Of a stretch of DNA of 64,000 nucleotides, positions 2,581-14,189 are shown in pieces. This DNA is from Tetraselmis striata (taxonomy: Eukaryota; Chlorophyta; Chlorodendrophyceae; Chlorodendrales; Chlorodendraceae), in contig VCJN01002118.1 of NCBI GenBank assembly GCA_006384855.1, forward strand, positions 248,001 to 312,000, written 5' to 3'. Below the pieces are notes generated by a model. That model had not been told where the DNA came from. It did no database searches and was given only the letters and a program-made list of their open reading frames with translations. Position 1 is the stretch's first letter. Every line of letters begins with the position of its first letter. Position numbers and translations under genes: made by a program.

Positions 2581-3542
2581 TGCCGCAGCATCCGTCATAT
2601 CCGCGTGCGCGTGAAGAACGGGACAGCCAAGCCCTTCCGGGCCGGCTAGGGTTAAAGCTAGGGTTCCATACCCGGTTGAGACCACAGGCAGGGCACCTGA
2701 TTGGTTAGGGTTCCATACCCTGGCCATAGCCCTGAGCGAGGCGCAAGGAGACATACATACCGGAGATCAGAGACCCGCCCAAGCACACCTAGGCGGGACT
2801 TCTAAGGGAACTCAGATAGCACCTCTAATCGGGACCTCTAACAGGGACCCCTAAGGTGGACTACCTGCAGAAGACGAAGTACTGTACTGCTGCTGGTACA
2901 AGGCGCAAGACTCACTGTAGCCGCAGCCGAGTAGTAGTATAGGACTTGATGAGTACAATTAGACAAGGGCAGTGCGTAATGCGTCTGGCGCGCGGTGCGC
3001 GCACGGCGCGCGTGCTATTAGCACTTAGCGTGACGTGCGGCTGCCTTGCCATGGCCGCGATCGCGTGCTTATAGAGGGCCTCCGCCTTCTAGCGGTCCCT
3101 CTTCCCCCTTGTCTTGCCTGTGTGTGCCTGTGTGTGCCTGTGTTTGCCTATGACAGGCATAGGCAAGAGCCTGTGTACGGGACGGAGACGGTGTAAGAGA
3201 CGGAGATCGGCTTGAGGAACGAGGGCCAAAGGTAATCACGGTAGCCTGCGTGCTTGTCGTACGGTCGCACGCGTGCTGCCCGCTGCATCGTGCGCGCGCG
3301 CTGCTGGTGGTGCTGGGTTGTCACCATTCGACCCGGTACCGACGTAAAGTACTGTAGGAACGGTTGATAGCCGCGACCAGCACTGCATAAAGTACTGCAC
3401 GGCGTGGCAGTGACCTGTGGTGAGAGGCTTCATTGCCACTGGCATTCACCCCCCTGAGTACGGGCAAGACCAGCAACGCTGGTCTGAACTAAAGCCCTAT
3501 AGGCGTCTGAGAGGTGCCTGTAGTGACTTAGGTTCGCGTTCA
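2581..3542 (+). repeat. 5' long terminal repeat
   Basis: Starts TGCCGCAGCATCC and ends GGTTCGCGTTCA; 962 bp. It matches 13137-14108 almost base for base. Seen differences are T/C near 2597, C/T near 2813, and one fewer TGCCTGTGTG unit near 3115-3150. It contains repeated TAGGGTTCCATACCC-type words and a short inverted pair around TGCCTATGACAGGCATAGGCA. As the upstream LTR it should hold the element's promoter, but no TATA box could be assigned confidently. Confidence 0.95.
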
Positions 3543-4435
3543 GACAAGGGGGAAGAGCTCTCGTGGGTGAGAGTGAGTGCTAGAGGTGAGGAAAGGTCCA
3601 AGGGGTGTTGGAGACAAACCTATATGGGAACTGCTCGTAAGAGTACATAAGACTCGAAGGGTGAGGGGACAAAACCCACTAGAGGGTGGGCCAGGAAGGC
3701 CCTCGGACTAGTGAGGTGACGAGGTGTGGAGTGGTTCGAGTTTCCTTTTGGGTTTGGTGACGAGCGAGAGGCAAAGGGTTTGCCACCTCTGGGGACACTT
3801 TGTGTTTGTGCCTGAGCGAGCCGTGAACAACGGGGCATTGAGTGGGCGAAGGGCACTAACGTCAAGCTAAGTGTGTTGCTGAGTGGCTCTTTCACCCAGC
3901 GCGGCCTCTGAGTGAGAGCCGCGGCGTGCCGACGCTCTTTCACCATCCCGCGGGAGGTGAGAGAGCGGCGTGTTCCTTTGGGTACCAATTGGCCTGCTCC
4001 GGTTCTTTTGGCCTGCTCCGGTTCTTTTGGCCTGCTCCAGTTCAACGACCTGCTCCAGTTCAACGGTTCAACGACGACAGGTGGTAGGAGGGAGGCAGGG
4101 CGTGAGCCCGGGAGTGGGAAGGCGCCGGCTTCACAGTCGTGTGTCAGTGCCGGAGTGCACTTGGAGGGAGCGGCATCGCCGCCTGAGGGCCCCGGCGAGG
4201 GTGACGGCTGGCGGGTGCGTGGCTCAGCTCGGTGCCAACCTCTTCGTGGCGGTGGTGTGGATCTGAGGTTCATCGGCACTGAGTTATACCGGACGCTGGA
4301 ACTGTTCGTGTATCGGCTTGAGACGGGTGTGCGCCAACACCGGCGAAGCGACGCGGCAGCGGCCCTCAGATTTCTGAGGCCGCGTGGACGCAGCCCCACT
4401 TCTGAGCTTGAGGGCCCCGGCGTGGGCGACAGCCA
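3543..4435 (+). other. Retrotransposon leader / 5' untranslated region
   Basis: 893 bases between the 5' LTR and gag. A tRNA primer-binding site should lie just after 3542. No canonical TGG-starting match abuts the LTR; the nearest TGG word is at about 3563, so the primer is undecided. A tandem array of GCCTGCTCCGGTTCTTTTG units occupies about 3990-4070. Open frames here lack coding character and are not called. Confidence 0.6.
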
Positions 4436-7400
4436 GTGGACGCGCTGGAAAGCGCAGAGGGCGGCTTTGCCCTGGGCGACCTGTGGGCAGCACTGGACGA
4501 GCTGGAGGAAGACCAGCTGATCGAGGAGATCGTGAAGGGGCTGCTGAACGACGTAGACGCATCCAACCAGGAGGGTGAGGAGTGCGATCACGAGAACGCG
4601 TACGCATACAGCAGCAGCGAAGCAGAGGACAGCGGAGACGACGAGGACGAGCTCTACTTTTCCCCGCTGCCAACACGCAACCCTAGGCGAGACACTTTGT
4701 ACGGACACGCGTACTTGGTGGACGACGCAATGAGCGACGATGAAATGGAGCCGCGGAGGGGCAAGGGCTCCAGCGGGAGGTTGTGCGCGGGTCACGAGAA
4801 GGCGACCTCAGAGTACACGTTTGAGACGTGGAAGAACTCTACGGACTGTGCCATGGAGAAGGAGCAACAACAGGCATTTGACCGCAACAGACCGTTCAAC
4901 GAGATCCACGAGGTTCACGTGCTGCGGAGCCGCATTCAGCCAAAGTACTTGGAGTCGCTAGAGACTACACTCATCAGCCGGGGCATCAAGTACGAGGACT
5001 CGAGGATCGTACGGAGGCTGGAAGGCGCAGAACGGCTCGACTACTACCGCCGGTTGTTGGACGGCATGTGGGAGGAGCTCGTCAACATCACCAAGCAGAT
5101 CGAGCTGCATTCGGAGCGGTACAGCAAGTGCCATCGCTCGCCTGGTGAGACTGTGCGCGATTTCCGCAATCTGTTGCTAACGCACACCAGGGTCAAGAAC
5201 CTGGTCACCGAGGAGACGACACGCATTGTGGAGATATCGCGCGTCAACGTGGAGTTCATCGAGCGGGCCTGGGGCAAGACGCGTTTCAGCCCCCGCATCA
5301 ACTTCGCACAACAACAACTCGTGGACTACACGATGGACACCCAGGTGGACAGGACCTGGGAGATGGCTGAGTGGCTCGACAAGCAGGAGCGCGGCAGCAT
5401 TCACATGCGCGCTCACTCGCGCGTCCAGAGCGGAGGCGGCAGGCGGGGTTTCGACCACGAGGAGCACAACAGCCGTGGTGGCGGTCGCGGCAGCAACAGC
5501 CGTGGTCGTGGAGGCAGCCACGGAGAGGGTGGCAACTACCATCGACGTGGAGGTGGAGGAGGTGATCGTGGAGGCGGGCGCACGGAGAGGAGCGCTTACG
5601 CCCGTGATGGAGATGATGGTGGGCGAGGCAGCCACGTCAATGAGGCAGGTTGCTATGGTTGTGGGTCGAAAGATCACTACAAGAGCGACTGCCCTCTGTG
5701 GAGCAAGACGTGCTCTGAGTGTGGCAAGAAGGGCCACATTGCCAAGCGGTGCTGGAAGGCCAACCCTGATCTCCGTCCGGAGACCGCCATGGCAGCAACC
5801 AATCCCAGGGAGCACATCAGAGTGCGCGAGGAGCCCAAGAAGCCGGACCGCAAGTCGTGCATGATGTGTGGCAAGGATGCGGGCCATACAACTGAGGAGT
5901 GCGGGAAGCTGCGCAAGTTCGTTGCGAACCTGCAGGCGACAGACGGCCACGAACCCAAGCACCCGCCGCTCAACGGCTATGCTCAAGTCGTCGGCAGCGA
6001 GGAGGGCGAGGTGGTGGGGCTGGCAGCAGCCAGCCAGTTGCGCCCACAGCGTAAGAGCACGGAGGCTCAACGCCATGGCGTCAACACGGTGCGCATGGAG
6101 GACGGAGAACGTGAGGCCAGGCAGCGGAGGCTGCCTCGCGGCTTCACCACCCCATCGATGGAGATGGCGCAGCAAATGCACAGCCGTACAGAGCTGACGG
6201 CGAAGCTTACCAGCGCAGCTCAGAGCGTCACGGTGCCTGTGTCACTGGCCAACGGCGGTGGACAGCCGCGCATGCCACTGATGGAGATCGCCAAGCGGCT
6301 GGTCAAGCACGAGCCCGTGGAGGATGGCTGGGAGAAGCATGCTGTCATGCGTGCTCTGGAGAGCAAGCGAGTCTCCATCAGCCTGATGGAGGCTTACCAG
6401 CTCGAGCGCAGCGGCGGCGGGATGATGGAGAGCGTCATGGCAACAGCATGGGGCGGCGGTGCCCTGAGTACCGAGCCGATCAGCAGCCACGCTCACTCAG
6501 CCAGGACCTCGAGCGGGGAGCGCGCCTTCGAGGCAGCGCTGATGATGGTGGAGGAGGTCGCTGACCAACAAAGCGGCGGCAAGTCTACCGCGGAGGAGAA
6601 GACCGCTGGCGGAGAGGCTGAGACTGAACGGTCTTTTGCCATTTACCGGCCAGGTCAACTCGCGAGACAACGCGAGGAGGAGGAAGATCGCAAGCGTGCA
6701 AATGCGCAGCGCAATGCCAGCACGGCGGTTGAGGAGGCATCAGTATGTCGCCGCAGCGGCAAGTGGGAACCCGCCACTGACTATCGACGCAGTGCCACTG
6801 AGGCAGACATCAGGGAGCAAGCACTACGGCTGCCCAAAGGGTCTGAGACCCGACGCTGCCTGGAGCAGCAGGCGGAAGTCGCCCACAAGGGCATTTTTGC
6901 CCTTCAGCCCACGGGGGCTGAGGCGAAGGAGCAGCCGGAGACGGCTCGGCTTGACACCATCACGTGCGAGTTGCACGCCAACAGTACCCTGCTGCAGTGC
7001 GAGACCATTTCCGACGGCGGGAGCAGCCACACCCGCATGAACGCGTCAGCGATGGAACCAAGCGCGGCGGAGGCCGTGGTGAAGGGCGCTGGCGGGTGGG
7101 TGGACGTCGACATGGTGGTGGTGCTCGCCAATGGCAAGCGCTCATGCGAGCAACAACGACGATTGCGGGATGGCGTGGTCTTCACGCTTCGGGACCCCGT
7201 CACCTCAATCATGGCAGCTCATCACGCACCGCGCGTGTACGAGAATGGAGGCGAGGCACCGGGCTTGCTGCTCGGTGGACCCACCATCACAGCCCTCGGG
7301 CTGCGACCGGACCCGGCGACCAGGATCTGCACTTTCCGCGCACCCAACCGACCGGCCGGCAGAGTGCCACTGCTCAGTCAAACGGCGTGGGAGCGGCGGG

Positions 7401-7801
7401 TACGCGAGCACCAACCTGTGGTGCGCGTGGAGAGAGCGAGCTACTGCCATGGGGTGGAGCTCGGCGATGATGAGATGGGGGAGGAGAGTGGGGGGGGCAG
7501 TGACGTGTCTCACAGCCACGCCGCCCACGAACCCTCACGGCGTGACGTGCAAGAGTCCAAGACCTGCGAGCCGGCAGACCTACCGCCTTTGCGGGAGGTG
7601 CAGAGCCTGCAGCGTCACGGGCTGGCGAGGCTGAGCACCCGCGAAGAGGGCATCAGCCTGTACGAGCCATGTGGCGGAGGCTACGTTGCCGTGTTGAATG
7701 CCATGCTGGCCAACGGTCAGAAGGTGGCCAGATACCGGCATTCGGACATCGACCCGGCAGCCCGCAAGGCCGCTGGGCAGCGTGTTCAAGGAGCTCAGTA
7801 G
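4436..7801 (+). CDS. Retrotransposon Gag-protease ORF, ending in methyltransferase motif I
   Basis: Capsid/nucleocapsid and protease polyprotein, 1121 codons. An acidic N-terminus (1-110) is followed by a helical gag-like region (150-320) and an RG/GGG-rich RNA-binding stretch (330-400). Two canonical CCHC zinc knuckles follow (C406/C409/H414/C419 and C426/C429/H434/C439), then a third with CX2CX5HX4C spacing (475-489). A retropepsin-like segment follows, with DGGSSH at 860-865 instead of DTGSS and LLLGG at 944-948. The last 50 residues read LYEPCGGGY (1075-1083) then SDIDPAARKA. These match motifs I and II of C5 DNA methyltransferases, while the remaining motifs lie in the next ORF. The frame is open only from 4412 and begins here with GTG. 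The first in-frame ATG is codon 99 (4730), so the true start is uncertain: a near-cognate codon, splicing, or initiation at 4730. Confidence 0.88.
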   Translation: MDALESAEGGFALGDLWAALDELEEDQLIEEIVKGLLNDVDASNQEGEECDHENAYAYSSSEAEDSGDDEDELYFSPLPTRNPRRDTLYGHAYLVDDAMSDDEMEPRRGKGSSGRLCAGHEKATSEYTFETWKNSTDCAMEKEQQQAFDRNRPFNEIHEVHVLRSRIQPKYLESLETTLISRGIKYEDSRIVRRLEGAERLDYYRRLLDGMWEELVNITKQIELHSERYSKCHRSPGETVRDFRNLLLTHTRVKNLVTEETTRIVEISRVNVEFIERAWGKTRFSPRINFAQQQLVDYTMDTQVDRTWEMAEWLDKQERGSIHMRAHSRVQSGGGRRGFDHEEHNSRGGGRGSNSRGRGGSHGEGGNYHRRGGGGGDRGGGRTERSAYARDGDDGGRGSHVNEAGCYGCGSKDHYKSDCPLWSKTCSECGKKGHIAKRCWKANPDLRPETAMAATNPREHIRVREEPKKPDRKSCMMCGKDAGHTTEECGKLRKFVANLQATDGHEPKHPPLNGYAQVVGSEEGEVVGLAAASQLRPQRKSTEAQRHGVNTVRMEDGEREARQRRLPRGFTTPSMEMAQQMHSRTELTAKLTSAAQSVTVPVSLANGGGQPRMPLMEIAKRLVKHEPVEDGWEKHAVMRALESKRVSISLMEAYQLERSGGGMMESVMATAWGGGALSTEPISSHAHSARTSSGERAFEAALMMVEEVADQQSGGKSTAEEKTAGGEAETERSFAIYRPGQLARQREEEEDRKRANAQRNASTAVEEASVCRRSGKWEPATDYRRSATEADIREQALRLPKGSETRRCLEQQAEVAHKGIFALQPTGAEAKEQPETARLDTITCELHANSTLLQCETISDGGSSHTRMNASAMEPSAAEAVVKGAGGWVDVDMVVVLANGKRSCEQQRRLRDGVVFTLRDPVTSIMAAHHAPRVYENGGEAPGLLLGGPTITALGLRPDPATRICTFRAPNRPAGRVPLLSQTAWERRVREHQPVVRVERASYCHGVELGDDEMGEESGGGSDVSHSHAAHEPSRRDVQESKTCEPADLPPLREVQSLQRHGLARLSTREEGISLYEPCGGGYVAVLNAMLANGQKVARYRHSDIDPAARKAAGQRVQGAQ

Positions 7802-10800
7802 GAGATATCCGGATCTACTACCAGCTAGCGCGATCAAGGGGTGGGACTCGTTTCCACAGGACATCACGGCGATCACAGCGGAGGACGTGAGGCGCCTGCC
7901 ATACATAGACATAGTGGGGTGTGGATGGCCTTGCCCAGGCATGAGCAGAGCCAATCGCAACGCGCTGGGATTGCGCGACCGGAGGTCACGTTTGCTCTTT
8001 CACGTGGCCGCGTTCATCGAGAAGCTCGAGGAGAAGCAGCCCACCGGCGTGGGGTGGCTGCTGGAGAACGTGGATACGAGCGGAGACGAGAGACTGTACA
8101 TCAAAGAGTCTGAGAAATACATCACGAAGATCATCGGGAGAGCGCTCGTGATTGATGAGGCGGGCTGTGGAGCGAATCATCACCGAGTGCGACGATTCTG
8201 GACGAACATGGGGGACGTGGAGAGACTGAAGTTGGCGTGGGAGAGGCGGGCGGACATGCAGCCACGACTGCTGCGAGAGGTGCTGCCACCGCACCTACGG
8301 CCGCATGTCAATCTGCCGACGCCACCCAACGGAGTTCGCGTCAATAAACCGGGGCAGCCACGCGCGTTGCCAACGATCTTGGCGCGATCGGACTCAGATG
8401 CCTACTCCGGCGAGGGGGCCGGCATGTTGTTCAACATCAACACGGGCGAGTGGGAACGGCCCACTGTCCACCTGAAGGAGGAGCTTTTCGGTTACGAGCC
8501 GAACGTAATTCACGGCATATCGCTGCCGGACCATGAGCGCCTCATAGGCAATGCCATGGGTCTGCACAGCGTAGCGTGGATCGTCGGGCAGCTCTTCGTG
8601 GAGCAGCAGCGACTGAGGGACTTGGAGGAGCTGGAGCGCGCAGCTCGGGCTGCCCAGGCAGCTCAGCGCGCGGAACGAGAGAGACGAGAGCAACGCAGGA
8701 TGCAGAGATCCTGCGGGAGAGCATGGCAGCAGCTGTGTCAACAGGCGCTATGCTGCTGGCTGCTGCTCATTTGGTTGGGCGGCACGTCAATGCACTTCGG
8801 CGAGGCGAGTCGTCTCGGCAACACCACGGTGTTAGCCATGTTCGTGGCAGTGATGGTGCGCGCGAGCGCGCGCTACCGCCGCGAGGTGACGGCGACAAGC
8901 AGGGCGGGGCGCCGAGCTTTCGGCGCCAACGCCGTGTCGGACGGCGGCGGGACTGCGGAACGGAGTAGCGCTGCTGCGTGGGCCAATCGTGGCTACACGC
9001 AGGCAAGTATGAATGATCACGTGGAGGATGTTCGCAGCCTGAAGGATCCTGAGAAACACTGGCGGTGCGGGCGCGAGTGCGAGGCTTCACAGCAACAACA
9101 GCTAGTGGAGCTCTGCGACAACTTTTGGGATGACGTGTGGGTGTGGTCCGTCAGCGACCTACCGGCCGTCAACCACTGGGAGTTCAGGATACCGACGACC
9201 AACACGCAGCCCATCAAGCGACCCAAGTACCGATTGAGCAAGACTGAGTGGGACTTCGTGGACAGCTGGTGCAAGGAGCTGTTGGCAGCTGGGGCGATCC
9301 GCGAGAGCCAATCTCCCTACAGCATCCCAGTAGTGTGTCCACCGAAGAAGGACGACGACGGCAACTGGACCGGGATCCGGGTGTGTTTGGACGCTCGCCC
9401 GTTGAACAGTGTCACTGAGTCGTGGGCGTATTGTATGCCCAAGACAGACGAGCTACTCAGCAAGGTCGCAGGCGCGCGCATGTACAGCGGGTTTGACGCC
9501 AAGTCGGCGTTTCATCAGCTGCCCATCGCAGAGGAGGACCGACACAAGACTGCCTTTTGGGGCAGCGACCGGCAGTATGAGTGGTGCCGGATGGCGATGG
9601 GCTTCAAGAACGCCAGCCAAGCATGGCAGCGTGTCATGGATGAGGCCCTTGGCGATCTGCCGTTCGTGGCGGTTTACGCCGATGACATCTGTGTCTTTTC
9701 AGGCGCAGCCGAGATGAGCGACGCTGAGGTGTTTCAGCAGCACCTTCAGCATTTGGAGACGGTGTTTCAGAGGCTCGCAACGGCGGGCATCAGACTGGCG
9801 CCCGGCAAGGGGCGCATGGCCGTGAGGCAGATTGCTTTCTTGGGCCATTGGGTCGACGGCGAAGGCGTATTCCCGCAGCACTCCAAGGTGGAGGCTGTGG
9901 TGAAGATGCCGCCGCCGACTGACGTTGCGGGGCTTCGGCGCTTCCTCGGCATGGTGGGCTACTACGGTAAGTTCATCGAGCAAGTTGCAGTCAAGCGCAA
10001 GCCGCTGACCAAGCTCACTGGCAAGGTGCCGTGGGAGTGGGGATCGGAGCAGCAACGAGCCTTCGAGCAGCTCAAGGCAGACCTGGTTTCAGCTCCCGTG
10101 CTGAGAAATCCGGATTGGAGCCGCCCTTTCATCCTGCACACCGATTTCAGCGGAGCTGGATTGGGCGCGGTGTTGGCGCAGGAGGACGACGAAGGACAGG
10201 AGTACGTGGTGGAGTTTGCGAGCCGCACCTGCCAAGGCGCGGAGCCCAACTATGCCAGCTATGAGGGTGAGTGTCTTGCCATGTTGTATGGCATGGACAA
10301 GTTCAGATACTATCTGTTTGGCAGGCAGTTTGTGGTGGTGACAGATCATCGGCCTTTGGAATGGCTGATGAACACCGCTCAGCTTCGTGGGAAGTTGGCG
10401 CGGTGGGCGATGAGGCTCAGCGAGTACGACTTCGTGGTACGCTATCGGAAGGGCGCTCACCACGTCAACGCAGATTGTCTGAGTCGGGGGCCCGTGGAGG
10501 GCGACCCAACGGAGCTGGATGGGCGCGGTGAGTTTTCACCGGAGGGCACCGTGCGACATGCGGCAGCCTTTTGGTGCGCAACGGCTCAGAGCAGCCGGCA
10601 GCCGGAGCTGTCAGCATGGGCGCGACGCCGCGTGCTGGACACCGCCCATGAGGGCACGGCCAACGGCGACTTGGTGGCGGTTACCGGCGAGCTGACGGCG
10701 GGACCGCGGAGAGGCGATCCGTGGATGGACGCGGAGGCGATGGCGGAGCTGCAGGCGGGCAACGTCAACATGCCGCAACCTTATGCCCGCTATACATGGA

Positions 10801-13013
10801 GAAACAACATCTTGTGGTATTTACACAAGGACGGCACGCACCGCGAGGTACCGCCACCCAGTGAGCGAGACACGGTGATTATGGATGTGCATGTCAAGAT
10901 GGGCCATTTGGGGCGGGATCGGCTGCGCAGTGTTATCGCCGCTTCATATTTCTGGCCAGGGATGGTGGAGGATGTAGCCCGAGTCAAGAAGGCGTGTCCG
11001 GACTGCGATCGGCTGCAACATCGACCCGGCGGCACCAGCGGTCGCCCAAAGGCAGCCTCACCGCTGGACATGCAGCCGCTGCCGCACTTCGGCATGTTCT
11101 ACCGCTGGCACTTGGACTTGGCGGGGCCTTTTGAGGCCACCCGCAGTCGCAATGTCTGGGTGTTGGTGATGGTGGAAGCGGCGAGCAAGTGGGTGGAGTT
11201 GGTGCCGCTGCGCACCAAGGAGGCAGCCAACATACGACAAGCCTTTCAAGAGAGAGTGCTGGCGCGTTTCGCGGCGCCAGGCGAGGTGTGTACCGACGGC
11301 GGTACCGAGTTCAGCGGCGAGTTCCACGAGCTTCTCGTGGAGCATGACATCGATCATCCGAAGCCGCTGCCCTATCATCCGCAGCCCAATGGGTTGGCGG
11401 AAGGGATGGTGAAAACAGTCAAGGAGGCACTGATGCGCTATGTGGTTCAGCCCGGCAAGCGCGTCGTGTGGGACACTTTTCTGCCTTCCATCGAGCTGGG
11501 CTACCGTTGCAGCAAGCAAGCCAGCACCAGGTACAGCCCATACGAGTTGGTGTACGGCAGGGCACCCGTGTTTCCCGCGCAGGCGAGAGCGCTCTTTGAG
11601 GAGAGCGCCGTGGACTTCAACAGCCCGGAGGGCATGTGGGAGCTGATGACAGTGCGCGCGGAGCGTTTGGCGCTCATGGTGCCGACGGCGATGCACAACG
11701 TGGAAGCGGCGCAGCATCGTGAAGTGATGCGCTATCGCAGGAGGCGCGCGGGGTTGGTGGCGCCCGGAGTGCAACGCTTCAGCCCCGGCGACTTCGTCTA
11801 CGTGCAACAGCGGCAGCAAGACGCGCTCGATCCACGAGTGCGACCGGCTGTCTACAAGGTTTACGAGGTGAACGACAACGGAGTGGTGGTCATCCAAGGA
11901 GCTGACGGCGACACGGCGCGCGTGCGCGTTGAGGAGCTGGTGCGGTGCGCCGTTCCATACGTGGTGTTGCCAGCAGGATTTGAAGACCCAAATATGGCGT
12001 GCGAGGAGTGCGACGGGCGCGTCAGCACCCAGCGCAACCCGATCATCATCTGCGAAGACTGTGAACGAGGCTGGCACAAGTTGTGTCATCAGCCACCTGT
12101 GGCACGTGTGCCGCGGGGGGCATGGCGGTGTGCGGAGTGCAGCGCTGATGACGCAGCGTTGCCGGCACAGTGGACATCGGTGGCTTTAGCCGCCACAACA
12201 ATCAGTGACAACGACGACAGCGACGAGGAGATTCAAGACCCTGCCCCGCCTTTGCAGCCGACAAGAGCGGCAGTGGCAGCAAGACTGAACTGGGGCATGC
12301 CTGGCGCCTGGCACCCAGCAACTGTGACAAGAACGATGAACAACCTTCAAGCAGCCAATGACTATCTACCGGCAATCAGTAACCAAGTGAGCGAGTACGC
12401 TGCGCTAGCCAACGTGATCAGCTGGCGCGGCCGAGTAATCTTTGATCCGTGGGCGGGACATGGCAGCACCGCTGAGGCCTTGCGGCCGTGCGGTGCGACA
12501 GTGATCAACAACGACTTCAATCCGGTGTACCAAACTGAGATGTGCGAGGACGCGCTGGAATCCTTTGTGTACCAGTGCGCTCGCGATGTAACCGCAACTG
12601 TGGCGATGACGACGATGATGACGACGACGATGACGACAACGATGATGACAACACAGCCGCGGTTAGAGGCCCCTTTCATAGTGGTGACCTCCCCGTGGTT
12701 CCAACTACTTGATCTGGCGCTGCCAATCATGGCGTCATGCGCGGACATCCTTTTCGTGCAAGTACCAATCTTCTACATCGCGCAGGGACCTTCCCCGCGC
12801 ATGCAGTGGCTACGGCATCTAGGCGACTGTGGGCGGCTCCACATTATTGCCGGCGACATGCAGCGTAATCGCACTACGCGCCGATCAACCCTGTGGCTCG
12901 CGGTCTTCCGCGACAACGAGCTGCGAGAGCGAGAACTGCGAGCTGAGTGGCGTCACTCCGTGGCGTCAATTCACTTCCACACCGAGGCGTGCGCTGGCGA
13001 CCAGCATCACTGA
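7698..13013 (+). CDS. Retrotransposon Pol: C5-methyltransferase, RT, RNase H, integrase, PHD finger, second MTase-like domain
   Basis: 1771 codons, read in the +1 frame relative to gag, with TGA at 7695 bounding it. Domains in order: C5 cytosine methyltransferase, with motif IV Pro78-Cys79 (GWPCPGMSRAN), motif VI Glu123-Asn-Val, motif VIII HRVRRFW (162-168) and motif X GNA (284-286), with DNMT3-like spacing; a basic coiled stretch with a hydrophobic segment (about 350-390); reverse transcriptase (about 500-760, catalytic YADD 660-663); RNase H (Asp816, TDH 882-884); integrase, with zinc ligands H1065/H1070/C1100/C1103 and catalytic D1140, D1200, E1235; a GPF-like tail (about 1375-1415); a PHD finger (C1435, C1438, C1452, C1455, H1460, C1463, C1478, C1481); and a Rossmann methyltransferase-like end with DPWAGHGS (1583-1590) and SPWF (1665-1668), interrupted by a Met/Thr low-complexity run (1637-1652). 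Expression needs a frameshift in 7698-7801. All catalytic residues of RT and integrase are present. Confidence 0.93.
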   Translation: MPCWPTVRRWPDTGIRTSTRQPARPLGSVFKELSRRYPDLLPASAIKGWDSFPQDITAITAEDVRRLPYIDIVGCGWPCPGMSRANRNALGLRDRRSRLLFHVAAFIEKLEEKQPTGVGWLLENVDTSGDERLYIKESEKYITKIIGRALVIDEAGCGANHHRVRRFWTNMGDVERLKLAWERRADMQPRLLREVLPPHLRPHVNLPTPPNGVRVNKPGQPRALPTILARSDSDAYSGEGAGMLFNINTGEWERPTVHLKEELFGYEPNVIHGISLPDHERLIGNAMGLHSVAWIVGQLFVEQQRLRDLEELERAARAAQAAQRAERERREQRRMQRSCGRAWQQLCQQALCCWLLLIWLGGTSMHFGEASRLGNTTVLAMFVAVMVRASARYRREVTATSRAGRRAFGANAVSDGGGTAERSSAAAWANRGYTQASMNDHVEDVRSLKDPEKHWRCGRECEASQQQQLVELCDNFWDDVWVWSVSDLPAVNHWEFRIPTTNTQPIKRPKYRLSKTEWDFVDSWCKELLAAGAIRESQSPYSIPVVCPPKKDDDGNWTGIRVCLDARPLNSVTESWAYCMPKTDELLSKVAGARMYSGFDAKSAFHQLPIAEEDRHKTAFWGSDRQYEWCRMAMGFKNASQAWQRVMDEALGDLPFVAVYADDICVFSGAAEMSDAEVFQQHLQHLETVFQRLATAGIRLAPGKGRMAVRQIAFLGHWVDGEGVFPQHSKVEAVVKMPPPTDVAGLRRFLGMVGYYGKFIEQVAVKRKPLTKLTGKVPWEWGSEQQRAFEQLKADLVSAPVLRNPDWSRPFILHTDFSGAGLGAVLAQEDDEGQEYVVEFASRTCQGAEPNYASYEGECLAMLYGMDKFRYYLFGRQFVVVTDHRPLEWLMNTAQLRGKLARWAMRLSEYDFVVRYRKGAHHVNADCLSRGPVEGDPTELDGRGEFSPEGTVRHAAAFWCATAQSSRQPELSAWARRRVLDTAHEGTANGDLVAVTGELTAGPRRGDPWMDAEAMAELQAGNVNMPQPYARYTWRNNILWYLHKDGTHREVPPPSERDTVIMDVHVKMGHLGRDRLRSVIAASYFWPGMVEDVARVKKACPDCDRLQHRPGGTSGRPKAASPLDMQPLPHFGMFYRWHLDLAGPFEATRSRNVWVLVMVEAASKWVELVPLRTKEAANIRQAFQERVLARFAAPGEVCTDGGTEFSGEFHELLVEHDIDHPKPLPYHPQPNGLAEGMVKTVKEALMRYVVQPGKRVVWDTFLPSIELGYRCSKQASTRYSPYELVYGRAPVFPAQARALFEESAVDFNSPEGMWELMTVRAERLALMVPTAMHNVEAAQHREVMRYRRRRAGLVAPGVQRFSPGDFVYVQQRQQDALDPRVRPAVYKVYEVNDNGVVVIQGADGDTARVRVEELVRCAVPYVVLPAGFEDPNMACEECDGRVSTQRNPIIICEDCERGWHKLCHQPPVARVPRGAWRCAECSADDAALPAQWTSVALAATTISDNDDSDEEIQDPAPPLQPTRAAVAARLNWGMPGAWHPATVTRTMNNLQAANDYLPAISNQVSEYAALANVISWRGRVIFDPWAGHGSTAEALRPCGATVINNDFNPVYQTEMCEDALESFVYQCARDVTATVAMTTMMTTTMTTTMMTTQPRLEAPFIVVTSPWFQLLDLALPIMASCADILFVQVPIFYIAQGPSPRMQWLRHLGDCGRLHIIAGDMQRNRTTRRSTLWLAVFRDNELRERELRAEWRHSVASIHFHTEACAGDQHH
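7780..7806 (+). promoter_or_regulatory. Probable +1 programmed frameshift region between gag and pol
   Basis: Gag and pol overlap only in 7698-7801. Aligning the methyltransferase motifs puts the switch near the gag terminator, where CAG TAG G could be read as CAG then AGG after slipping one base, joining VQGAQ to RRYPDL. Stalling at a stop codon is a known way to drive +1 shifts. The exact site is inferred. A recent single-base deletion giving the same picture is an alternative. Confidence 0.4.
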
Positions 13014-13063: not shown

Positions 13064-13136
13064 GGGGGGGGGGGATGGGCCGCCCATTGAGCTGGTGACA
13101 GCGCCCCACGCGGGAATGCGAGCATGCGACGGCAGC
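13064..13136 (+). repeat. Polypurine tract and 69-bp segment duplicated beyond the 3' LTR
   Basis: Eleven G residues (13064-13074) act as the likely polypurine tract, but 62 bases separate them from the LTR instead of the usual few. The 69 bases 13067-13135 recur exactly at 14117-14185, just after the 3' LTR. Confidence 0.7.
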
Positions 13137-14108
13137 TGCCGCAGCATCCGTCACATCCGCGTGCGCGTGAAGAACGGGACAGCCAAGCCCTTCCGGGCCG
13201 GCTAGGGTTAAAGCTAGGGTTCCATACCCGGTTGAGACCACAGGCAGGGCACCTGATTGGTTAGGGTTCCATACCCTGGCCATAGCCCTGAGCGAGGCGC
13301 AAGGAGACATACATACCGGAGATCAGAGACCCGCCCAAGCACACCTAGGCGGGACTTCTAAGGGAATTCAGATAGCACCTCTAATCGGGACCTCTAACAG
13401 GGACCCCTAAGGTGGACTACCTGCAGAAGACGAAGTACTGTACTGCTGCTGGTACAAGGCGCAAGACTCACTGTAGCCGCAGCCGAGTAGTAGTATAGGA
13501 CTTGATGAGTACAATTAGACAAGGGCAGTGCGTAATGCGTCTGGCGCGCGGTGCGCGCACGGCGCGCGTGCTATTAGCACTTAGCGTGACGTGCGGCTGC
13601 CTTGCCATGGCCGCGATCGCGTGCTTATAGAGGGCCTCCGCCTTCTAGCGGTCCCTCTTCCCCCTTGTCTTGCCTGTGTGTGCCTGTGTGTGCCTGTGTG
13701 TGCCTGTGTTTGCCTATGACAGGCATAGGCAAGAGCCTGTGTACGGGACGGAGACGGTGTAAGAGACGGAGATCGGCTTGAGGAACGAGGGCCAAAGGTA
13801 ATCACGGTAGCCTGCGTGCTTGTCGTACGGTCGCACGCGTGCTGCCCGCTGCATCGTGCGCGCGCGCTGCTGGTGGTGCTGGGTTGTCACCATTCGACCC
13901 GGTACCGACGTAAAGTACTGTAGGAACGGTTGATAGCCGCGACCAGCACTGCATAAAGTACTGCACGGCGTGGCAGTGACCTGTGGTGAGAGGCTTCATT
14001 GCCACTGGCATTCACCCCCCTGAGTACGGGCAAGACCAGCAACGCTGGTCTGAACTAAAGCCCTATAGGCGTCTGAGAGGTGCCTGTAGTGACTTAGGTT
14101 CGCGTTCA
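13137..14108 (+). repeat. 3' long terminal repeat
   Basis: 972 bp, the copy of 2581-3542 with one extra TGCCTGTGTG unit. Boundaries were set by loss of identity with the 5' LTR on both sides and by TG/CA ends. Confidence 0.95.
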
Positions 14109-14185
14109 GGGGGGATGGGGGGGGATGGGCCGCCCATTGAGCTGGTGACAGCGCCCCACGCGGGAATGCGAGCATGCGACGGCAG
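14109..14185 (+). repeat. Second copy of the pre-LTR segment
   Basis: After the 3' LTR comes GGGGGGAT, then the 69-bp segment also found at 13067-13135. Similarity ends at GGCAG, exactly where the LTR would begin in the internal copy. Read on the minus strand, it adjoins the end of the non-LTR retroelement fragment and may be that element's 3' tail (C-rich, CCCCCCAT units). Confidence 0.7.
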
Positions 14186-14189
14186 GTGG

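Follow-up and report, generated by a model that had tools for sequence, protein, structure and literature searches.

A 64,000-nucleotide stretch of the genome of the green alga Tetraselmis striata (GenBank assembly GCA_006384855.1, contig VCJN01002118.1, positions 248,001 to 312,000; referred to below as the window) contains a young Ty3/gypsy retrotransposon that carries a cytosine-C5 DNA methyltransferase (DNMT) domain of the DNMT3 type, and the domain is spread over two overlapping open reading frames (ORFs). ORF1, which encodes Gag and a probable protease, ends in motifs I and II of the enzyme, which bind S-adenosylmethionine, and ORF2, the Pol frame, opens with the catalytic motifs IV to X. 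We consider it probable, at roughly two chances in three, that a Ty3/gypsy element captured a DNMT3-type methyltransferase across its ORF1/ORF2 junction and that the enzyme is joined by frameshifting, packaged and used to methylate the element's own DNA copy. According to this proposal, ribosomes would shift frame by +1 within the 104 bases shared by the two frames and thereby join the DNMT halves, so that a complete methyltransferase would be present only in the rarer Gag-Pol product. The joined enzyme would be packaged alongside the reverse transcriptase (RT) and integrase. Its substrate, while reverse transcription is under way or once it is complete, could be the DNA copy of the element itself or else the target site. 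Further downstream lie a PHD finger and a second methyltransferase-like domain, which may cooperate with the DNMT where the element integrates, acting on chromatin or DNA. Placing the two halves of a methyltransferase on either side of the frame change in Pol would be an unusual means of tying an enzyme to the particle.

Identification of a DNMT3-type domain

The original prediction of a DNMT3-like methyltransferase in this element was based on six motifs, all of which we located in the sequence. Motif I (LYEPCGGGY, 7658-7684) and motif II (SDIDPAARKA, 7742-7771) read in the ORF1 frame, and motifs IV (GWPCPGMSRAN, 7923-7955, with the catalytic cysteine codon at 7932-7934), VI (LLENV, 8058-8072), VIII (HRVRRFW, 8181-8201) and X (ERLIGNAMG, 8535-8561) read in the ORF2 frame, one base ahead; the motif numbers are those that we take these segments to represent. 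The C5-methyltransferase motifs I, IV (PC), VI (ENV), VIII and X thus occur in order, spread over two frames. The claim that all key motifs are intact holds as to their presence and has to be qualified, since the domain becomes one protein only through a frame change.

Profile searching supported the class of enzyme. The Pfam family DNA_methylase (PF00145) matched the piece 7698-8690 with an E-value of 1.8e-5 and 24.8 bits (cut-off 22), and with the whole of ORF2 as query the score was 21.5 bits, slightly below the cut-off, so the single-sequence match is weak. In a sequence search of the PDB, DNMT3A and DNMT3B came out on top (best E-value 7.8e-4) with HhaI behind them (0.22). A profile built from nine domains (the window domain, five from copia elements, one from a LINE and two from further proteins) again placed DNMT3A first (7.8e-16, 61.4 bits), followed by HaeIII (4.2e-12, 49.1 bits), DNMT3B (5.8e-12, 48.7 bits), DNMT2 (6.7e-10, 41.9 bits), HhaI (1.3e-9, 41.0 bits), DRM2 (0.0035, 19.9 bits) and DNMT1 (0.11, 15.0 bits). 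The catalytic domain of DNMT3A/DNMT3B is therefore the nearest PDB match both by sequence and by profile, in agreement with the predicted DNMT3-like class, a call that rests on a thin reference set. In the alignment with a DNMT3A fragment of 122 residues, 31 of the 116 aligned residues are identical, and the element domain has additional residues in the interval from motif II to motif IV. The Pfam matches of ORF1 and ORF2 included neither a PWWP nor an ADD domain; animal DNMT3s are described as having both (PMC12344493).

The stretch with motifs I and II, read in the ORF1 frame, is homologous to the corresponding part of a LINE-borne DNMT of the genome. The alignment of the two scored 79, which none of 5000 shuffles reached. 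Across the eight target blocks used in this test, six were reached by 0 of 5000 shuffles, the copia A block by 4 and the copia C block by 502. Judged from its sequence, we regard the domain as a real DNMT3-type C5-methyltransferase domain.

Conservation of the two-frame arrangement

Since motifs I and II lie in ORF1 and motifs IV to X in ORF2, the domain straddles the frame change. The window is part of a 224-Mb assembly, and from 128 matches in this genome the best 30 copies, the window copy included, were fetched. The original prediction had proposed looking for other copies; all 30, chosen by DNMT similarity, keep the domain in both frames. Motif I reads in the ORF1 frame in every one of them, and the ORF1 stop falls at the identical base in 29, the remaining copy stopping at 7826. 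A further set consisted of 11 degraded copies, or relics, with 77-97% DNA identity. All of these are gap-free over the 39 bases preceding the ORF1 stop, and a stop triplet stands at the ORF1 end in ten (nine TAG and one TAA; the eleventh relic has TTG). The two-frame arrangement is a fixed trait of the element and not an error of the window sequence. It is best read as a +1 frameshift, with the enzyme presumably made only in Gag-Pol, and we favor a programmed +1 shift over a -2 shift or some other route. A single-base skip anywhere in the overlap would give a protein of the same length, so the position of the slip is not fixed by the sequence.

Open ORF2 frames of 1753-1799 codons are present in 15 copies of the window family, the window copy included. 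The ORF2 protein search gave 11 matches, ten of which are EukProt gene models (jgi/Tetstr1) with identity up to 100%; the other is a metagenome protein (P0005, 1732 amino acids) from a contig of 8999 bases. This relative retains the DNMT, the PHD finger and the second methyltransferase-like domain, and its start as set by the gene caller, a methionine, falls at the same point of the DNMT domain as the start of ORF2. Its DNMT part is identical to that of the window at 187 of 265 residues, with no gaps at all. Identity amounts to 241 of 280 residues (86%) in the RT, 120 of 130 in RNase H, 315 of 370 in the integrase, 37 of 56 (66%) in the PHD finger and 147 of 213 (69%, with 17 gap columns) in the second methyltransferase-like domain; the three linkers are 47-65% identical, with gaps. 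No relative of P0005 was found in the viral contigs that we searched.

It had been argued that selection probably keeps the domain active, given intact key motifs and young LTRs. Young LTRs are by themselves no proof of selection, and the gap-free relative appears to be better evidence. For 28 of the 30 copies (L022 and L037, with identity below 97%, were excluded), the ratio of nonsynonymous to synonymous polymorphism (pN/pS) was 0.24 in the DNMT, a value biased low by the choice of copies according to their similarity with the DNMT protein, 0.79 in the following linker, 0.39 in the RT and 0.38 in ORF1. The domain lies within the coding region of the element, is present in many copies and is under purifying selection, as indicated by the gap-free relative and, with the bias just mentioned, by pN/pS. 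With its many copies, and with its domain kept in an independent relative, the element is of the kind described by de Mendoza et al. in 2018 (PMC5890265), as had been predicted.

Weighing of alternative explanations and possible function

Besides the bias in pN/pS, several observations weigh against a frameshift-joined, self-methylating enzyme. We could not locate a slip sequence within the overlap at 7698-7801. Between motif I and position 7759, three of the 11 relics differ in length by amounts that change the frame (L057 +29, L060 -14, L061 -2) and another, L063, is non-homologous at the start of this stretch; length differences upstream of the last 39 bases are as expected of decayed copies and are not positive support. 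The relative P0005 is known from its protein alone, with the upstream frame unseen, and its conservation covers the ORF2 part of the domain. An AlphaFold model of the ORF2 half alone had a confidence score (pLDDT) of 45 and gave no match at E<=0.001 in a fold search. There was no clear 5-methylcytosine footprint either in the mutation spectrum of the copies (transitions per site of 0.061 at CG, 0.078 at CHG, 0.039 at CHH and 0.036 at A/T, with CHG transversions likewise raised) or in the CpG content of the window (observed/expected ratios of 0.98 in the element interior, 0.88-0.89 in the LTRs and 0.92-1.02 in four other window stretches). In addition, the Klebsormidium Gypsy DNMT showed no activity in yeast, a result that its authors call inconclusive (PMC5890265).

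The frame change would also be compatible with a split enzyme, in which the halves are made as separate proteins, ORF2 being independently started or released by the protease, and then associate. Some bacterial C5-methyltransferases consist of two subunits, every one of the 30 copies has both halves in their separate frames, and the gene caller begins the ORF2 of P0005 at a methionine here. We nevertheless think this quite unlikely, since the homologous copia and LINE domains cross this point in one frame and Ty3 produces its Pol by a +1 frameshift. A one-base indel in the DNMT of a master copy, after which the element amplified without a working methyltransferase, strikes us as very improbable: one base would suffice and the copies are young, but relics at 77-90% DNA identity have the same frame relation at the overlap, the catalytic part of P0005 is open and gap-free with the same start point, and pN/pS of the domain, even if lowered by the choice of copies, is not near 1. 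We rejected such a broken relic as the main view because all 30 copies, and old relics as well, show the frame relation. It is also unlikely that the DNMT fold is kept for another job, such as C5-methylation of element RNA or tethering. This would accord with the want of a clear 5-methylcytosine footprint and with the zinc knuckles in the same ORF, ORF1, and RNA methylation was raised for SymbioLINE by the authors of the 2018 study (PMC5890265). Against it, the profile is nearest to DNMT3A, a DNA enzyme, ahead of DNMT2, and the catalytic motifs are retained.

If the two halves are joined by a frameshift as we propose, the most likely function in our analysis is to methylate either the cDNA of the element, while still inside the particle, or the new insertion. 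Such self-methylation, for which de Mendoza et al. (PMC5890265) put forward the argument and in whose study SymbioDIRS domains methylate CG in yeast, seems plausible here. Methylation of its own DNA, if true, would help the element to pass as host DNA or to survive, and the dozens of young, near-identical copies make the question of why an element should methylate DNA directly testable.

Other DNMT-bearing elements of the genome

PF00145 gave 123 scored matches in the genome among 337 candidates, and 39 of the 123 lie in open frames of at least 1000 codons (in one case a TAG interrupts the match). Related DNMTs are carried by no fewer than five Ty1/copia-type families (A to E, sorted by eye; six loci, twenty domain stretches), the copia-type stretches being L049-L054, L066-L076, L078, L081, L082, L084 and L085. 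In all five families the DNMT is followed by protease-like and integrase parts in its own frame; the RT is in the DNMT frame in A, C and D and in another frame in the fetched copies of B and E. A zinc knuckle upstream of the DNMT was seen only in family C, the other fetched stretches beginning further downstream. Pfam was run on one copia stretch, L051 of family C, and gave the layout zf-CCHC (2-16), DNMT (475-549), Pol_BBD (733-800), rve (936-1033) and RVT_2 (1353-1598). Because the copia DNMT is also upstream of the protease in the polyprotein, the placement of a DNMT beside Gag-Pol is repeated in these families.

A LINE-type frame (C2687:17000-23194, adjoining loci L086, L077 and L087; 2065 codons within the fetched stretch) has the order RT (2.6e-10), PCIF1-type domain (PF12237, 2.6e-15), DNMT (4.7e-10) and RNase H (1.4e-11). 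Relatives of the copia and LINE DNMT domains are present on ENA contigs, namely P0015 (2514 amino acids) and P0018 (PF12237 and PF00145), the latter sharing the PCIF1-DNMT pair with this LINE. Among the 25 proteins found by our searches for relatives there is none with a Klebsormidium or dinoflagellate name; the searches required shared five-residue words and can miss distant kin.

The window DNMT is 22-30% identical to the copia, LINE and ENA domains. In the DNMT tree, a phylogeny of the kind that the original prediction had proposed, the Ty3, copia and LINE domains group together (91.6/91) and DNMT3A joins next (97/99), which places the transposon domains beside DNMT3A. The references were one partial DNMT3A and two long outgroups (a polinton-side DNMT and a bacterial-looking DNMT), and with one partial DNMT3 reference the tree does not settle one capture versus several. 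Separate captures of a host DNMT3 by each superfamily, an origin question compatible with any of the readings weighed above, are possible, at somewhat less than even odds. The position of the DNMT differs: in copia it precedes the protease, in Ty3 it spans ORF1/ORF2, and in the LINE it is flanked by the RT/PCIF1-type domain on one side and RNase H on the other. Recurrent capture was argued in the 2018 paper (PMC5890265). Pointing the other way, the transposon domains cluster against DNMT3A in the tree, with the reference set just described, and they can be aligned through the extended region between motifs II and IV. A more tentative idea, which we think rather doubtful, is that the Gag-Pol frameshift acts as a safety switch, assembling the divided DNMT3 domain only in the rare fusion protein and so confining methylation to particles and the cDNA of the element itself, and that one captured DNMT3 has been passed among the Ty3, Ty1/copia and LINE elements of green algae; if true, DNMT3 would be a shared module of unrelated retrotransposons.

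Several near-identical copies of a stand-alone DNMT, about 325 codons long, are also present in the genome (L001-L006, and L083 on C1230); the gene beside this DNMT looks, by eye, like one of a polinton. Two loci, L007 (C2385) and L079 (C2009), appear by eye to be bacterial-looking DNMT genes, possibly on contaminating contigs.

Comparison with known elements

DNMT-bearing retrotransposons, a Klebsormidium Gypsy element among them, were published in 2018 (de Mendoza et al., PMC5890265). As described in that text, KnitGypsy-Dnmt3 of Klebsormidium nitens is, like the element reported here, a Gypsy LTR element whose Pol polyprotein includes a Dnmt3-class domain; it has several copies, and purifying selection was reported for it. 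The location within Pol, which the original prediction suggested may be new, could thus be common to both elements. It has a DIRS-like repeat structure with the domain in the Pol ORF, whereas the Tetraselmis element has an ordinary LTR pair with the domain across two frames, adds the PHD finger and the second methyltransferase-like domain, and belongs to another algal lineage; the two are set apart here by the text description, and a similar split is possible in KnitGypsy-Dnmt3. SymbioDIRS-Dnmt3 and SymbioLINE-Dnmt of dinoflagellates (PMC5890265) are likewise retrotransposons with a DNMT, which lies in Pol in the former and in ORF1 in the latter, unlike the Tetraselmis Ty3 layout, and Symbiodinium Copia elements are described there without DNMT. 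DNMT3 in LTR Copia and DIRS elements of streptophytes and dinoflagellates is mentioned, in one sentence citing the 2018 paper, by Sarre et al. 2025 (PMC12344493); the mention of Copia parallels the Tetraselmis copia elements, and Tetraselmis is unnamed in the main text of that article. Transcripts of the host DNMT5a and DNMT6 of Tetraselmis have been reported, with no element in the account we cite (PMC9998398). Our literature search, judged on titles and the starts of abstracts and with supplements and most subscription journals outside its scope, returned no DNMT elements in Tetraselmis. The two-frame layout seems to be new, as does the occurrence of the domain in three kinds of element of a single genome, and Tetraselmis, a green alga, joins the lineages whose retrotransposons, here including Ty1/copia, carry DNA methyltransferases.

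Structure of the element

The element has an LTR pair, and the order RT-RNase H-integrase in ORF2 assigns it to Ty3/gypsy, as originally proposed (Table 1). The two LTRs align over 973 columns with two mismatches and one gap (10 bases), and from their near-identity the element is young, which bears out the view that it is recent. The 5' LTR has at least 43 matches in the genome, at least 39 of them at 95-100% identity across almost its full length. By-eye inspection beside the LTRs revealed no recognizable target site duplication or primer binding site. A 72-base stretch that closes the internal region (13067-13138) recurs with one mismatch at 14117-14188, just past the 3' LTR, and the 3' junction may therefore be nested or rearranged. 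The region listed as a candidate protease is presumably retropepsin-like by its pattern, and it gave no match in Pfam and PDB searches.

Table 1. Features of the Tetraselmis Ty3/gypsy element, in window coordinates
Feature	Position	Strand	Description
5' LTR	2581-3543	+	direct repeat of 13137-14109
ORF1 open frame	4412-7801	+	gag-like, zinc knuckles, probable protease, DNMT motifs I-II; TAG stop 7799-7801
CCHC zinc knuckle in ORF1 (better of 2 stretches)	5648-5695	+	PF00098; zf-CCHC 6.8e-5
Candidate retropepsin-like region (SDGGSSH ... LLLGGPTITALGL), tentative	7005-7330	+	by-eye pattern
DNMT motif I-II block	7649-7798	+	ORF1 frame; homology to LINE DNMT motif I-II
ORF1/ORF2 overlap within DNMT domain	7698-7801	+	104 bases; ORF2 one base ahead
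ORF2 (Pol) open frame	7698-13013	+	1771 codons
DNMT motifs IV-X	7782-8618	+	ORF2 frame; PF00145 1.8e-5; DNMT3A via profile 7.8e-16
Reverse transcriptase	9342-9851	+	PF00078 8.2e-23
RNase H	10038-10427	+	PF17917 1.4e-34, PF17919 1.6e-32
Integrase (H2C2 zinc finger and core)	10851-11357	+	PF17921 2.8e-13, PF00665 4.7e-9
PHD finger	12000-12140	+	PF00628 4.2e-6
Second methyltransferase-like domain (DPWAGHGS ... NDFNP ... TSPWF)	12420-12930	+	motifs by eye
3' LTR	13137-14109	+	direct repeat of 2581-3543

The second methyltransferase-like domain (12420-12930) gave no match in Pfam and no sensible match in a PDB sequence search. Its structural model, of low confidence (pLDDT 49), had no fold match at E<=0.001, and the best of its weaker matches were class I methyltransferases mixed with pyridoxal phosphate (PLP) enzymes. 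Relatives of this domain occur at many other sites of the genome (L088-L093), frequently within open frames some 232 codons long, and are 30-37% identical over the aligned stretches. Six copies of it lie at C2237:9733-30496, spaced about 4 kb apart and with one TAG in each.

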